Assembly: GCA_031271905.1 (NCBI GenBank)
Contig: JAISUT010000025.1
Coordinates: forward strand, 1 to 64,000
DNA from: Acidobacteriota bacterium
GTDB taxonomy: Bacteria > Acidobacteriota > UBA6911
Direction of reading: 5' to 3'
Length of the DNA: 64,000 nucleotides
Shown: one piece after another, positions 35,134 through 63,435 of the stretch
How the letters are laid out: the number at the start of each line of letters is the position of its first letter
Position numbering within the stretch: position 1 is the first letter of the stretch
Notes under the pieces: generated by a model
What the model was told of the DNA's origin: nothing
The model's input: only the letters and a program-made list of their open reading frames with translations
The model's database searches: none
Made by a program: the position numbers and the translations under genes

Positions 35134-35162
35134 AGCCGTTGTTGCACAGGGAAAAAGGGTCG

Positions 35163-35272
35163 AGCCCCGGGAGACCTGTTGCACATGTAAGGAACCTCTT
35201 AATGCTGCTTCCTTCCGGACCTGACATGGTTCGAGGGTTACATTGCACAGGGCCCGAGGCCCGTCAATCGAC
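35163..35272 (-). ncRNA. ffs: Signal recognition particle RNA (4.5S type)
   Basis: The universally conserved SRP hairpin core GTCAGGTCCGGAAGGAAGC is read on the minus strand (35225-35204 region), with the GGAA tetraloop. Outer arms pair: TTACAT with ATGTAA and CCTGT with ACAGG, then a G/C-rich closing stem (CCCCGGG with CCTCGGG). This gives a short bacterial-type RNA of about 110 bases. It ends about 30 bases before dnaX on the same strand. Ends are approximate. Confidence 0.9.
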
Positions 35273-58486: not shown

Positions 58487-58633
58487 CTCAGTGCGTCACG
58501 GTCGTGGTGATCGCATTCGGCTAAGGGGATTGCACCGCTGCGCCGATCTGCACGGGAGCGGTTCCCGCGAAAGTGGCGGCATGTGAGCATATTGATTGGC
58601 ATCATGAATATAAAAACAAACGGAGGAACAAGC

Positions 58634-60379
58634 ATGAAATTGCGCATTGCAGTGATCGCGGCTTTATGCGCGGGCTTGGTCTGTGGCGTGTGCGTCACGG
58701 GCAACGCCCAGGTCGCGGCCGCGGCCAAGGTTACCGTGCTCAACCCGATGGGCACGCCACCGCCCATCCAGTTGAAGCAGATGGCGGAGCGCCCGACGAC
58801 GCTCGACGGCAAGACCATATACCTGGTCAACACCGGCTTTGTCGGCACCGAACGCCTCATGGAAGTGATGGAGGAGTGGTTCAAGGAAAACCACCCCAAG
58901 ACCACCATCGTCTCCAAACGCAACCCCAGCATGGATGTGGCCGACAAGGCCCTCTGGGCTGAAATCCAAGAGAAGGCCGACGGCGTCGTCATCGGCCTCG
59001 GCCATTGAAGTGTCTGTGCGCCTGGGGCGGTCCGCCTCAGCATAGACATCGAATCCAACCTTAAGAAACCCTCGATCCCCCTCATCCTGAACGATTTCTA
59101 CGAGCAGGAGAAGGAAGTCGCCTACACGAGCGGCATGCCCGGCCTCCGCATCCAGTATTTCCGGGGCCCGGTCTGGGGCAAGACGCACGACCAGCTCCGC
59201 AAGATGATCATCCAGGGCAACAACCCGATCACGGGCAAGCCCGTGATGCCGGAGATCATCGAGAAGCTGACCAAGCCGCTGACCGCCGAGGAGAAGAAGA
59301 CCGGCACCGCCACGCTGGACGTGGGGCCGGACACCTACACCGGCACGCCGGACGAGTTGCAGCAGTTGTACCTCGACAAGCGGTACACCGACTTCATGCC
59401 GATCATCCTGCCCACCGTGGAAAAGGTGGAGGAGATGCTCAAGGGCACCAGCCATGAGCCCGACGAGATCGTCGGCCGCATGAACCCCGGCTCCGAAGCC
59501 GGAGACACCTGGTCCTACACGGTGAAAGACGTCGCCATCAGCGCCGTCATGGCGGGCGCCAAGCCGGAATACCTCCCGGTCATCCTGGCGCTGGCATCCA
59601 CCGGCACCACCCCGGTCAACGTCTCGGACAACGGCTTCATGGCGGGCGCGGTCATCAACGGCGCCATCCGCCAGGAGATCGGCCTGAACTACGAGATCGG
59701 AGCGGTGGGGCCCTACGCCCACGCCAACACGACCATCGGCCGCGCGTGGAACCTGGTCGCCATCAACGGCGCCAACTGCGGCAAGGTCGGCACCACCTAC
59801 ATGGGGACGGTCGGCAACCCGATGAACGCCATCGACGTCATCATCGCCGAGAACGAGGAGCAGTCGCCGTTCGAGCCGTTCGCGGTCCGGCGCGGCTTCA
59901 AGAAAGACGAGAACATCGTCACCGTGTTCATGGGCTGGGGCATCCTTTCGGCGAAGAACTGGAAGGCCGACGTCTGGGGTCCGAACATGAACTATCCGCA
60001 GATCATCAAGGACATCTACAACCAGCAGGACGCCATGTTCGGGACCGTCGCGGTCCTGAGCCCGCCGATCGCCGATTTCGTCCGCGACGGCGGCCACGCC
60101 ACGGTGGAGGACTTCACCAAGTGGGTGCAGGCCGACGCCTTGGCGGCAGGTCCGATGACGGCTTTCGGCCCCGCCAAGCCCGAGGGGAAACCCGCGGGCG
60201 AAGGCAAGCCCCCCGCCGGGAAGGCGCCCGCAGGCAAGGGCGCGTCCAAGGGCAAGGGCGGCTTCGGCCCGATGGCGCCGCAGTTCAACGTGGTCGTCAC
60301 CGGCGGCACCAACAACAACTACTTCATGATGGGCGGCATGGTTCCGGCCGCGTCCGTCCAGATCGACAAGTGGCGGTAG
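58634..60379 (+). CDS. Exported UGSC-type selenoprotein with in-frame TGA (Sec125)
   Basis: The frame from ATG 58634 (GGAGG seven bases upstream) to the stop at 60377-60379 contains a single TGA at 59006-59008. Read as selenocysteine it gives 581 residues. Residues 1-25 are a signal peptide (cleavage near GNAQV). Residues 35-250 resemble the UGSC-like thiol/selenol domain (LDGKTIYLVNTGF, GVVIGLGH), with Sec125-Ser-Val-Cys128 in the place of the family U-G-S-C motif. The C-terminal half (310-520; AVMAGAKPEYLPVILAL, IGRAWNLVAINGA, IAENEEQSPFEPF) looks like the conserved partner domain of those proteins. A Pro/Gly/Lys linker precedes the last strand. A SECIS hairpin follows the TGA directly. No ribosome site exists for a separate downstream gene (next ATG 59135). 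The family name is from memory; the redox role is inferred. Confidence 0.85.
59006..59047 (+). promoter_or_regulatory. Selenocysteine codon and bacterial SECIS element
   Basis: TGA (59006-59008) is followed three bases later by a stem-loop. The outer stem is GTCTGTGC (59012-59019) with GCATAGAC (59040-59047), 8 bp with one G-U. There is a three-base 5' bulge (59020-59022). The inner stem is TGGGGC (59023-59028) with GCCTCA (59034-59039), 6 bp with one G-U. The apical loop is GGUCC (59029-59033). The first loop G is 21 bases after the end of TGA, within the known bacterial range, and GGUC matches the loop of the E. coli fdhF element. Confidence 0.85.
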
Positions 60380-60541: not shown

Positions 60542-60790
60542 ATGGCCGAAGCGAAGAAACCGAAAAGCCCCAAGGGGACGGTCGCGATCAATGTCGAGTT
60601 GTGCAAAGGCTGCGGCTTTTGCATCGCCTTCTGCCCGTCGGGGGTGCTGGAGTTTTCGGACAAGTTCAACAGCAAGGGGTACCATCCGCCGCACGCCGCG
60701 AACCCTGAGAAGTGCGTCGGTTGCGGCCTTTGCGGCATGTACTGCCCCGACTTCGCGATTTTCGGGACGCGCAACAAGGAAGTCGCGTGA
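60542..60790 (+). CDS. korD: 2-Oxoacid:ferredoxin oxidoreductase ferredoxin subunit (delta)
   Basis: This 82-residue two-cluster ferredoxin has CKGCGFCIAFCP and CVGCGLCGMYCP. It starts at ATG 60542 after AAAAAAGGAG. It carries electrons from the Kor active site to free ferredoxin. It is the first gene of a tightly packed four-gene operon ordered D-A-B-C. Confidence 0.93.
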   Translation: MAEAKKPKSPKGTVAINVELCKGCGFCIAFCPSGVLEFSDKFNSKGYHPPHAANPEKCVGCGLCGMYCPDFAIFGTRNKEVA

Positions 60791-60845
60791 GGATGCGGCG
60801 CGCCTGCGACGCCGGGCGCGGGGAAGCAGTTGGAAAGGAGAACAG

Positions 60846-62045
60846 TTGAAAGCGGATCCCAAAGGAGTTTTGACCGGCGCCCATTTTTTGGACGGTGACC
60901 ACGCCTGTTGCGAGGGGGCGCTGGCCGCAGGCTGCCGGTTCGCCGCAGGCTACCCCATCACCCCCTCGACAGAGGTCGTGGAACGCATCGCGGCGCGGTT
61001 CCCGTCCGTGGGCGGCATCTTCATCCAGATGGAGGACGAGCTGGCGTCGTCCATCGCCCTGCAGGGGGCGGTCTGGGGCGGCGCCAAGGCGATGACGGTG
61101 ACCTCCGGGCCGGGCTTTTCGCTCATGATGGAGCACATCGGCTACGCCGCCATGGTCGAGACGCCGTGCGTCTTCGTCGATGTGCAGCGCAGCGGCCCCT
61201 CGACGGGCTTGCCGACCCTGCCGGCGCAGGCCGACATGATGCAGGCGCGCTGGGGGAGCCACGGCGACTACGAGGTCATCGCCCTCTGCCCGAACTCGCC
61301 CCAGGAGTGCTTCGACCTGACGATCAAGGCGTTCAACCTGGCCGAGGTCTACCGCGTGCCGGTCATGATGATGATGGACGAGTGCGTCGGCCACATGACC
61401 GAGAAAGTGGTCATCCCCAAGGCGAGCGAGATCCATGTCGAGCCGCGCCGCTATACCACGGCCAAGCCCGAGGACTACCTCCCCTTCAAGGCCGAGAAGA
61501 ACTCCGCGCCGCCGATGGTTCGGGCGGGGGACGGCTACCGCTTCCATGTGACCGGTCTGACGCACGACGAGCGCGGCTACCCGGTCACGAACGCCGAGGT
61601 GCAGGACCGCTGCGTGCGCCGCCTGGTGGACAAGATCCGCGCCAACGCCCGGCAGATCATCATGCTGGAGGAGAGCGACACCTCCGACGCCGACATCGTG
61701 GTGGTCTCCTACGGCATCACCTCGCGCGTCGCGGTCAAGGCCATCCAGCAGGCGCGGGAGGACGGCTACAAGGTCGGGCACCTGCGGCTGGTCACCGCGT
61801 GGCCCTTCCCGGAGAAGCGCCTGCGCACGCTCGCCTCGCACGTCAAGGCGTTCATCATGCCGGAGCTGAACCTGGGCCAGATGTATTTCGAGATGCAACG
61901 TTGCGTCGAGGGGCGCGCCGCCACCTACCTGCTGCCCCACGCGGGCGGGAGCGTCCACGACCCCGAACTCATCTACCAGAAGATCGCCTACGCGGCCCGG
62001 CACATGCGCGTGAAGGAAGGCAAGGAAAAGGAGGCTGCCAAGTGA
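60846..62045 (+). CDS. korA: 2-Oxoglutarate:ferredoxin oxidoreductase, alpha subunit
   Basis: This 399-residue subunit has CRFAAGYPITPSTEV, MEDELASSIALQGA and TSGPGFSLMMEHIG, typical of KorA/VorB-type alpha chains. The start is TTG 60846 with AAAGGAG five bases upstream. The stop overlaps the korB start. 2-Oxoglutarate is the most likely substrate from subunit layout; a branched-chain 2-oxoacid is the alternative. Confidence 0.92.
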   Translation: MKADPKGVLTGAHFLDGDHACCEGALAAGCRFAAGYPITPSTEVVERIAARFPSVGGIFIQMEDELASSIALQGAVWGGAKAMTVTSGPGFSLMMEHIGYAAMVETPCVFVDVQRSGPSTGLPTLPAQADMMQARWGSHGDYEVIALCPNSPQECFDLTIKAFNLAEVYRVPVMMMMDECVGHMTEKVVIPKASEIHVEPRRYTTAKPEDYLPFKAEKNSAPPMVRAGDGYRFHVTGLTHDERGYPVTNAEVQDRCVRRLVDKIRANARQIIMLEESDTSDADIVVVSYGITSRVAVKAIQQAREDGYKVGHLRLVTAWPFPEKRLRTLASHVKAFIMPELNLGQMYFEMQRCVEGRAATYLLPHAGGSVHDPELIYQKIAYAARHMRVKEGKEKEAAK

Positions 62046-62899
62046 GCCCCACGACGAAGAACCCGCGGAACCAGTACCTGCGCACGGATCGGATGCCGCA
62101 CATCTGGTGCCCCGGCTGCGGGCTGGGGACGACCATCAACTGCTTCATCACCGCCGTCGAGGAGTGCGGGCTGCCGTTGGACCTCATCAGCGTGGTCTCC
62201 GGCATCGGCTGCACGGGCCGCATCGCCGGCTACCTGAAGCTGGACAGCTTCCACACCACGCACGGCCGCCCGATTCCGTTCGCCACCGGGCTGAAGCTCG
62301 CCAACCCCAAGCTCAAGGTGGTGGTCTTCAGCGGCGACGGCGACCTGTGCGCCATCGGCGGCAACCACTTCATCCACGCCGCGCGGCGCAACATGGACTT
62401 GACCATCATCTGCGTCAACAACTTCACCTACGGCATGACGGGCGGGCAGGTGACGCCGACCACCCCGATGGAGGCGGTCTCCTCGACCACCCCCTACGGC
62501 AACATCGAGGAGCCGTTCAACCTGCCGTTCTTGGCCGACTGCTCCGGCGCGGTCTACGTGGCGCGCTGGACCACGTTCCACGTCCGGCAGGCCGCCAAGG
62601 CGATGCGCGAGGCCATCCAGAAGAACGGCTTCAGCTTCGTGGAGATCATCAGCCCCTGCCCGACGCTCTACGGGCGGCGCAACAAGCTGGGCGACGGGCT
62701 CAAGATGATGCAGGCGTTCAAGGACAACAGCGTGGTCTGCAACGACGCCGACACGCGCTCCGTGGCGCTCGACTTCCGCGGCAAGATCGCCTGCGGGAAG
62801 TTCGTGGATCGCGAGAAGACCTCGTTCCTTGACATGTACAACACCAAGATGGCCGAGCGGTTCGGGCCTTTCTACGAGCCGTACGAGGGCGTGAAATGA
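62042..62899 (+). CDS. korB: 2-Oxoglutarate:ferredoxin oxidoreductase, beta (TPP) subunit
   Basis: This 285-residue thiamine-diphosphate subunit has HIWCPGCGLG, SGIGCTGRIAGY, SGDGDLCAIGGNHF and NNFTYGMTGGQ. These provide the cluster ligands and the TPP/Mg site. The start is GTG 62042, overlapping the korA stop (GTGA), so translation is coupled. The korC start overlaps its stop in turn. Confidence 0.93.
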   Translation: MSPTTKNPRNQYLRTDRMPHIWCPGCGLGTTINCFITAVEECGLPLDLISVVSGIGCTGRIAGYLKLDSFHTTHGRPIPFATGLKLANPKLKVVVFSGDGDLCAIGGNHFIHAARRNMDLTIICVNNFTYGMTGGQVTPTTPMEAVSSTTPYGNIEEPFNLPFLADCSGAVYVARWTTFHVRQAAKAMREAIQKNGFSFVEIISPCPTLYGRRNKLGDGLKMMQAFKDNSVVCNDADTRSVALDFRGKIACGKFVDREKTSFLDMYNTKMAERFGPFYEPYEGVK

Positions 62900-63435
62900 C
62901 GACGGAGATAAAATTCGGCGGCTTCGGCGGACAGGGGGTGATCTTGGCGGGGATCATCATCGGGCGCGCCGCCAGCATCCTGGACCACAAATACGCGACG
63001 CTGACGCAGAGCTTCGGGCCGGAGGCGCGCGGCGGGGCCTGCAGCGCCCAAGTCATCATCTCCGACGACAAGATCCTGTACCCCTACGTGACCCGTCCGG
63101 AGATACTGGTCGCCATGTCGCAGGAGGCGTGCAACAAGTTCCTGCCCGAGGCGGCGGACGACGCGACGGTCATCATCGAGGAAGACCTGGTCAAGCCCAG
63201 GGGGGTCAAGCCGGGGATGAGCGTCTTCGCCATCCCGGCCACGCGCTTCGCCGAGGAGCTGGGGCCCAAGATGATCCTGAACATCGTGATGGTCGGCTTT
63301 TTCACCGCGGTGACGAAGCTCGTCTCCCACAAGTCGGTGCGCGAGACGGTCAAGGGCTCCGTGCCGCTGGGCACCGAGACGATGAACTTGATGGCGTTCG
63401 ACCGCGGCTACGAGTACGGCCAGGCGCTGGTCTGA
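62896..63435 (+). CDS. korC: 2-Oxoglutarate:ferredoxin oxidoreductase, gamma subunit
   Basis: This 179-residue subunit shows FGGFGGQGVILAG and SFGPEARGGACSAQV, the CoA-binding gamma-chain motifs. It starts at ATG 62896, overlapping the korB stop (ATGA). It is a paralogue of iorB in the same window. The operon ends here; no terminator was identified. Confidence 0.93.
   Translation: MTTEIKFGGFGGQGVILAGIIIGRAASILDHKYATLTQSFGPEARGGACSAQVIISDDKILYPYVTRPEILVAMSQEACNKFLPEAADDATVIIEEDLVKPRGVKPGMSVFAIPATRFAEELGPKMILNIVMVGFFTAVTKLVSHKSVRETVKGSVPLGTETMNLMAFDRGYEYGQALV

Follow-up and report, generated by a model that had tools for sequence, protein, structure and literature searches.

An in-frame UGA followed by a conserved SECIS-type hairpin in a fused UGSC-family gene of an Acidobacteriota bacterium

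The hairpin lying directly behind an in-frame TGA codon in the window (the whole stretch of DNA analyzed, 64,000 nucleotides) is almost certainly a bacterial SECIS element, through which UGA would be read as selenocysteine (Sec) at residue 125 of a UGSC-family redox protein that is probably exported. This identity, put forward in the first-pass annotation, is supported in the sequences by a TGA retained at the same codon in homologs, Sec synthesis and insertion genes in the same genome, compensatory changes in the stem, a freezing of synonymous codons, and the absence of any qualifying hairpin from paralogs that lack the TGA. The features concerned, all on the forward strand, are as follows.

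58622-58626, forward: GGAGG Shine-Dalgarno-like site, from the sequence
58634-60379, forward: predicted fused selenoprotein gene of the UGSC family, 581 amino acids with TGA translated as U, in-frame TGA at codon 125 (PF24696 match)
58736-59206, forward: UGSC domain, residues 35-191 (PF24696 match; AlphaFold model)
59006-59008, forward: UGA predicted to be read as selenocysteine 125
59010-59049, forward: entire hairpin in the minimum-energy fold, comprising a 10-bp lower stem that is not conserved, a GCC bulge and the upper stem
59015-59017, forward: codon of Cys128, putative UxxC partner of Sec, a nearly invariant alignment column
59023-59039, forward: conserved core of the putative SECIS, a 6-7 bp upper stem (TGGGGCG/CGCCTCA) with apical loop GUC, or GGUCC with the top pair open, delimited by pairing in relatives, the lowest synonymous diversity in the gene and the open loop
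59297-60151, forward: C-terminal domain, residues 222-506, whose relatives are separate genes near the UGSC gene in some other Acidobacteriota

In the minimum-energy fold, positions 59010-59019 pair with 59040-59049 to form a lower stem of 10 bp, GCC at 59020-59022 bulges out on the 5' side, and 59023-59029 pair with 59033-59039 in an upper stem of 7 bp. The hairpin described earlier was thus recovered, and extends slightly beyond what had been drawn: both stems of its 14-bp two-part structure and the three-base 5' bulge were found, but with 10 and 7 bp rather than 8 and 6. The two G-U pairs noted at the time lie one in each stem (59016-59043 in the lower, 59025-59037 in the upper), and a third, 59010-59049, is added by the extended lower stem. 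Over the 45 nt that follow the TGA the minimum free energy is -24.0 kcal/mol, and the upper stem-loop alone contributes a structure of -8.9 kcal/mol. None of 500 shuffles preserving both the protein sequence and codon usage was as stable as -24.0 kcal/mol (z -3.9), indicating that the hairpin is no by-product of the coding sequence and bearing out the view that such a fold would rarely arise here by chance. An alternative fold that hid the loop had been named as grounds for doubting the structure; partition functions for contexts of 41-251 nt gave 59030-59032, the bases of the loop, an unpaired probability of 1.0 throughout, so no rival fold conceals the loop, and the inner upper-stem pairs 59024-59028 formed with a probability of 1.0 in contexts of up to 251 nt.

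Published constraints for bacterial SECIS (bSECIS) elements call for an apical loop of 3-9 nt on an upper stem of 4-16 bp, a G at loop position 1 or 2 that is usually followed by G or U, a spacing of 16-37 nt between the Sec-UGA and the loop, and a minimum free energy of -7.5 kcal/mol or lower (PMC13188914). The hairpin lies within all four, and it is for this published model that the match to known requirements claimed in the first-pass annotation holds: its loop is 3 nt on a 7-bp stem, with G first and U second (GUC, or GGUCC if the top pair opens), 21 nt (59009-59029) separate the UGA from GUC, and the energies of the upper stem-loop and of the entire hairpin are both below the threshold. 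The distance of 21 bases had been assigned to a GGUCC loop; it holds for GUC, and 20 nt is the value for GGUCC. In these respects the hairpin resembles the consensus bSECIS (PMC13188914), from which it differs in having a long extra lower stem and a bulge of 3 nt, neither of them kept by relatives. Viewed against a single well-known element, the similarity is again in the loop. The SECIS of Escherichia coli fdhF carries G-U in a small apical loop shortly past the UGA, as does the hairpin here, and has in its upper stem a single bulged U that matters for SelB; the upper stem here is without a bulged U.

The two stems differ sharply in their conservation. In an alignment of 20 CAPGAVRL-type relatives that is gapless from the TGA, 92.1% of upper-stem cells are paired, compared with 86.1% in shuffled sequences and 49-66% in slid registers (65.7% at most), and neither this pairing nor the upper-stem covariation score was reached by any of 500 shuffles. 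Both sides have changed in five sequences at pair 18-34 and in L080 at pair 21-31, where G-C has become A-U. The covariation proposed as a check on the hairpin is therefore present at two upper-stem pairs. The lower stem is only 60% paired in the 20 relatives, and its inclusion erases most of the excess over shuffles. The same boundary is seen in codon usage. Gly131 (GGG in 15/15), Ala132 (GCG in 18/19), Arg134 (CGC in 19/19), and Leu135 (CTC in 18/18) are nearly frozen, Ala129, Pro130, and Ser136 are each encoded by four or five different codons, and the only variation at Val133 (GTC/GTT) falls on a loop base; among the 283 seven-codon windows of the gene, the one beginning at 131 ranks lowest in relative synonymous diversity. 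Synonymous freezing and the footprint of pairing thus coincide, showing that the coding sequence is under a second constraint at the upper stem, which upholds for that part the earlier proposal of a hairpin under double constraint. Selection on structure among homologs that keep the UGA was accordingly found for the upper stem only, and the conserved element, as judged from these alignments, is the upper stem of 6-7 bp with its G-U loop.

A rather unlikely variant of this reading would have Sec inserted at the UGA but the entire 17-bp hairpin, lower stem included, serving as the functional SECIS of the window gene. The lower stem does supply much of the stability, and a mismatched version of it is retained by L032 and L033, the closest relatives; it is specific to them and the window gene. 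Its poor pairing across the 20 relatives and the free variation of codons 129-130, which lie next to and within it, point instead to the upper stem. The description of a textbook two-part stem is correct for the upper stem and G-U loop, and since the lower stem is not conserved, it is correct only in part.

Conservation of the TGA itself was followed through 396 genomes of the phylum. Fused homologs with one TGA are present in all 10 sampled genomes of the genus, and at the position of codon 125 a TGA is found in 111 of 125 distinct homologous sequences, the other 14 having Ser, Thr, Met, Leu, or Asn, although two of these 14 come from a single locus (L165) and are possibly imperfectly aligned. 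A quickly built tree requires the TGA/non-TGA label to change six times, and just one of these changes is forced by well-supported branches. A true stop at this codon, yielding a 124-aa product or marking a decayed gene beside a hairpin that is fortuitous or regulatory, is very improbable: a plain bacterial ORF caller does end the frame at 59008, but 456 codons continue past the TGA with the usual strong third-position GC, many residues in them are invariant in full-length homologs with a TGA at the same place, and only at the upper stem are synonymous codons frozen.

The genome (3.4 Mb in 67 contigs, 99.8% complete) encodes a tRNA-Sec whose anticodon is TCA (70.3 bits, cut-off 47) together with selA, a selB for full-length SelB, and selD, completing a Sec-decoding set. 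MAGs of Acidobacteria are its nearest named relatives. The selD gene (L018:1531) has an in-frame TGA near its start, and 17 nt downstream of it a hairpin of 6 bp closes a GGA loop; for this reason SelD is probably a selenoprotein too. That the TGA is read as some other amino acid, through suppression or code reassignment, would agree with open-frame conservation taken by itself but can be practically dismissed, as TGA is a common stop that ends 18 of the 41 likely genes in the window and is thus not reassigned, the genome carries tRNA-Sec with selA, selB, and selD, and the codon falls within the UxxC motif of a family published as selenoproteins (PMC2398784). Elsewhere in the window, the reverse strand carries a bacterial small signal recognition particle RNA at 35162-35259 (Rfam RF00169, 65.1 bits). 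Downstream of the selenoprotein gene, at 60542-63435 on the forward strand, are four genes of a 2-oxoacid:ferredoxin oxidoreductase (4Fe-4S protein, POR_N, TPP enzyme, and POR gamma). Operon context was considered as a clue to function; the oxidoreductase genes do not adjoin the close relative L028, whose neighbors are AsmA-like and ABC-ATPase genes, and the functional link was therefore dropped.

The preferred reading, a SECIS element consisting of the upper stem and loop, was also assessed across the family. Loss of the stem was to be sought in homologs with Cys in place of Sec; none was present among the 125 homologous sequences, so non-TGA paralogs were taken as the control. An earlier hairpin score for the relatives had been chosen after seeing the data, and the test was repeated with the published constraints. 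By these, a gapless bSECIS hairpin at or below -7.5 kcal/mol occurs in 66 of the 111 TGA sequences, where codon shuffles would lead one to expect about 10.6, and in 0 of the 14 non-TGA sequences. This is a family-level result: many relatives are not significant alone in codon-shuffle tests, and among 26 TGA sequences added later only one had p <= 0.05 by itself. In 11 non-TGA paralogs (L063, L064, L066, L069, L071, L125, L130, L133, L138, L141, and L146) the Sec and its partner Cys have both been lost; two of them, L064 and L069, have twin-arginine-like motifs at their start (RRGF and RRSF).

The form of the hairpin varies between subfamilies. In paralogs of the QCAP/SSCSP type the stem is 6 bp long, carries a G-U loop of four bases (AGUU or GGUC) and lies some 3-4 nt nearer the TGA; in 12 sequences this stem is 97.2% paired, and at two of its pairs both sides have changed. 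For the canonical UGSC genes found in other Acidobacteriota, the usual form is a stem of 6-9 bp and a three-base G-U loop 19 nt past the TGA. In the UGSCTKF/YL genes, represented by 13 sequences (L123, L127, L151, L163, L166, L167, L169, L170, L171, L173, L174, L175, and L177), the TGA is kept and no hairpin fits the bSECIS model; given also the weak hairpins of several other TGA homologs, conservation of the TGA is not always accompanied by bSECIS structure. These 13 genes share a different element in which AAAGU-U-CCUCG pairs with CGAGG-ACUUU, giving two 5-bp stems that flank one unpaired base and close a loop of 19 nt; it is 98.5% paired but shows only one compensatory pair, and is for that reason put forward as a suggestion. 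A covariance model (R1) used to search the genome found only the window gene and one paralog, making it unfit as a general SECIS finder. In a further paralog, L142 (G104:C289:15121-15639), two consecutive in-frame TGA codons (UUGC) occur after position 1582 on the reverse strand, and a hairpin of 7 bp with a G-U loop comes next; in paralogs the residue after the TGA is Trp, Asp, His, or Pro, so the second TGA may have arisen from TGG or be a sequencing error.

The predicted protein belongs to the UGSC family by its match to PF24696 (E 2.2e-18, 67.4 bits against a gathering score of 25), but its match to NF041046 (E 2.4e-9, 37.3 bits) falls short of the cut-off of 125. On these profile scores the gene is best taken as a divergent, fused UGSC branch and not as the NF041046 equivalog itself. 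Like the family described by PF24696 and NF041046 it has a UGSC-type domain with Sec followed by Cys three residues on, and it differs in reading U-S-V-C within GHUSVCAPG (U125 to C128, a UxxC motif), rather than U-G-S-C, and in being fused to a long C-terminal domain, which has no match in Pfam or NCBIfam. A UGSC/Unknown_1 fusion has been depicted from marine metagenomes of the Global Ocean Sampling (PMC2398784, Fig. S1A), in a paper that presents UGSC as a selenoprotein family abundant in aquatic metagenomes; the two fusions are comparable at the level of architecture only, each joining a UGSC domain to an uncharacterized one. In some other Acidobacteriota the TGA-containing UGSC domain and the C-terminal domain are encoded by separate genes lying close together (G367:C25, G259:C2, G257:C11, G275:C3, G122:C123, and G214:C1). 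No report on selenoproteins of this lineage was found among open-access papers, and phage records gave no match.

In the AlphaFold model (mean pLDDT 82) the UGSC domain consists of alternating strands and helices, with Sec125 placed just past strand 117-123, the third of the domain core, and before helix 128-142. A fold search with the full model matched the N-terminal domain to common alpha/beta folds only (best Z 10.2, to AerR and a designed protein), and such matches say little about function. No protein of the Trx fold, which PMC2398784 suggests for UGSC, was noticed among the fold-search matches listed, and a profile search of solved structures returned nothing convincing. The N-terminus, judged by eye, looks like a signal peptide, and the protein is probably exported.

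Taken as a working scheme, the upper stem and G-U loop of the mRNA, with the loop set 21 nt past the UGA, would be the binding site for the C-terminal part of SelB, and SelB would deliver Sec-tRNA-Sec to a ribosome with the UGA at 59006-59008 in its A site. Residue 125 would thereby become selenocysteine, and Sec125 with Cys128 may form a UxxC selenol-thiol redox pair at the end of a strand of the alpha/beta fold.

The genus has an unusually large set of TGA-containing UGSC paralogs. In the six genomes counted (G000, G104, G113, G188, G250, and G266; loci L061-L071, L097, L121-L147, and L150-L179) there are 6-20 per genome: an in-frame TGA is present in 6 of the 11 PF24696 domains in the genome of the window, 20/28 in G104, 18/19 in G113, 17/27 in G266, 16/16 in G250, and 11/12 in G188. 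The largest selenoproteome known in 2006 comprised 31 genes of many families (PMC1794560). Here a single selenoprotein family may, quite tentatively, have expanded to as many as 20 TGA copies per genome, presumably as exported two-domain redox enzymes diversifying on different substrates, with one SelB reading SECIS elements that have drifted into different registers and that include, in the UGSCTKF/YL genes, an element of a different class.

On its own, the hairpin is an ordinary bacterial SECIS, a known type of signal in a known selenoprotein family, and the gene that carries it would be truncated at the TGA by standard ORF calling. The wider interest of the hairpin is in the company it keeps, as its roughly one hundred related genes, all from one phylum and many of them sharing a genome, provide a natural panel in which the conserved part of the SECIS, the upper stem and G-U loop, can be recognized and the extent to which its register can move can be followed. 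The number of Sec copies of an uncharacterized, probably exported family raises the question of its chemistry.
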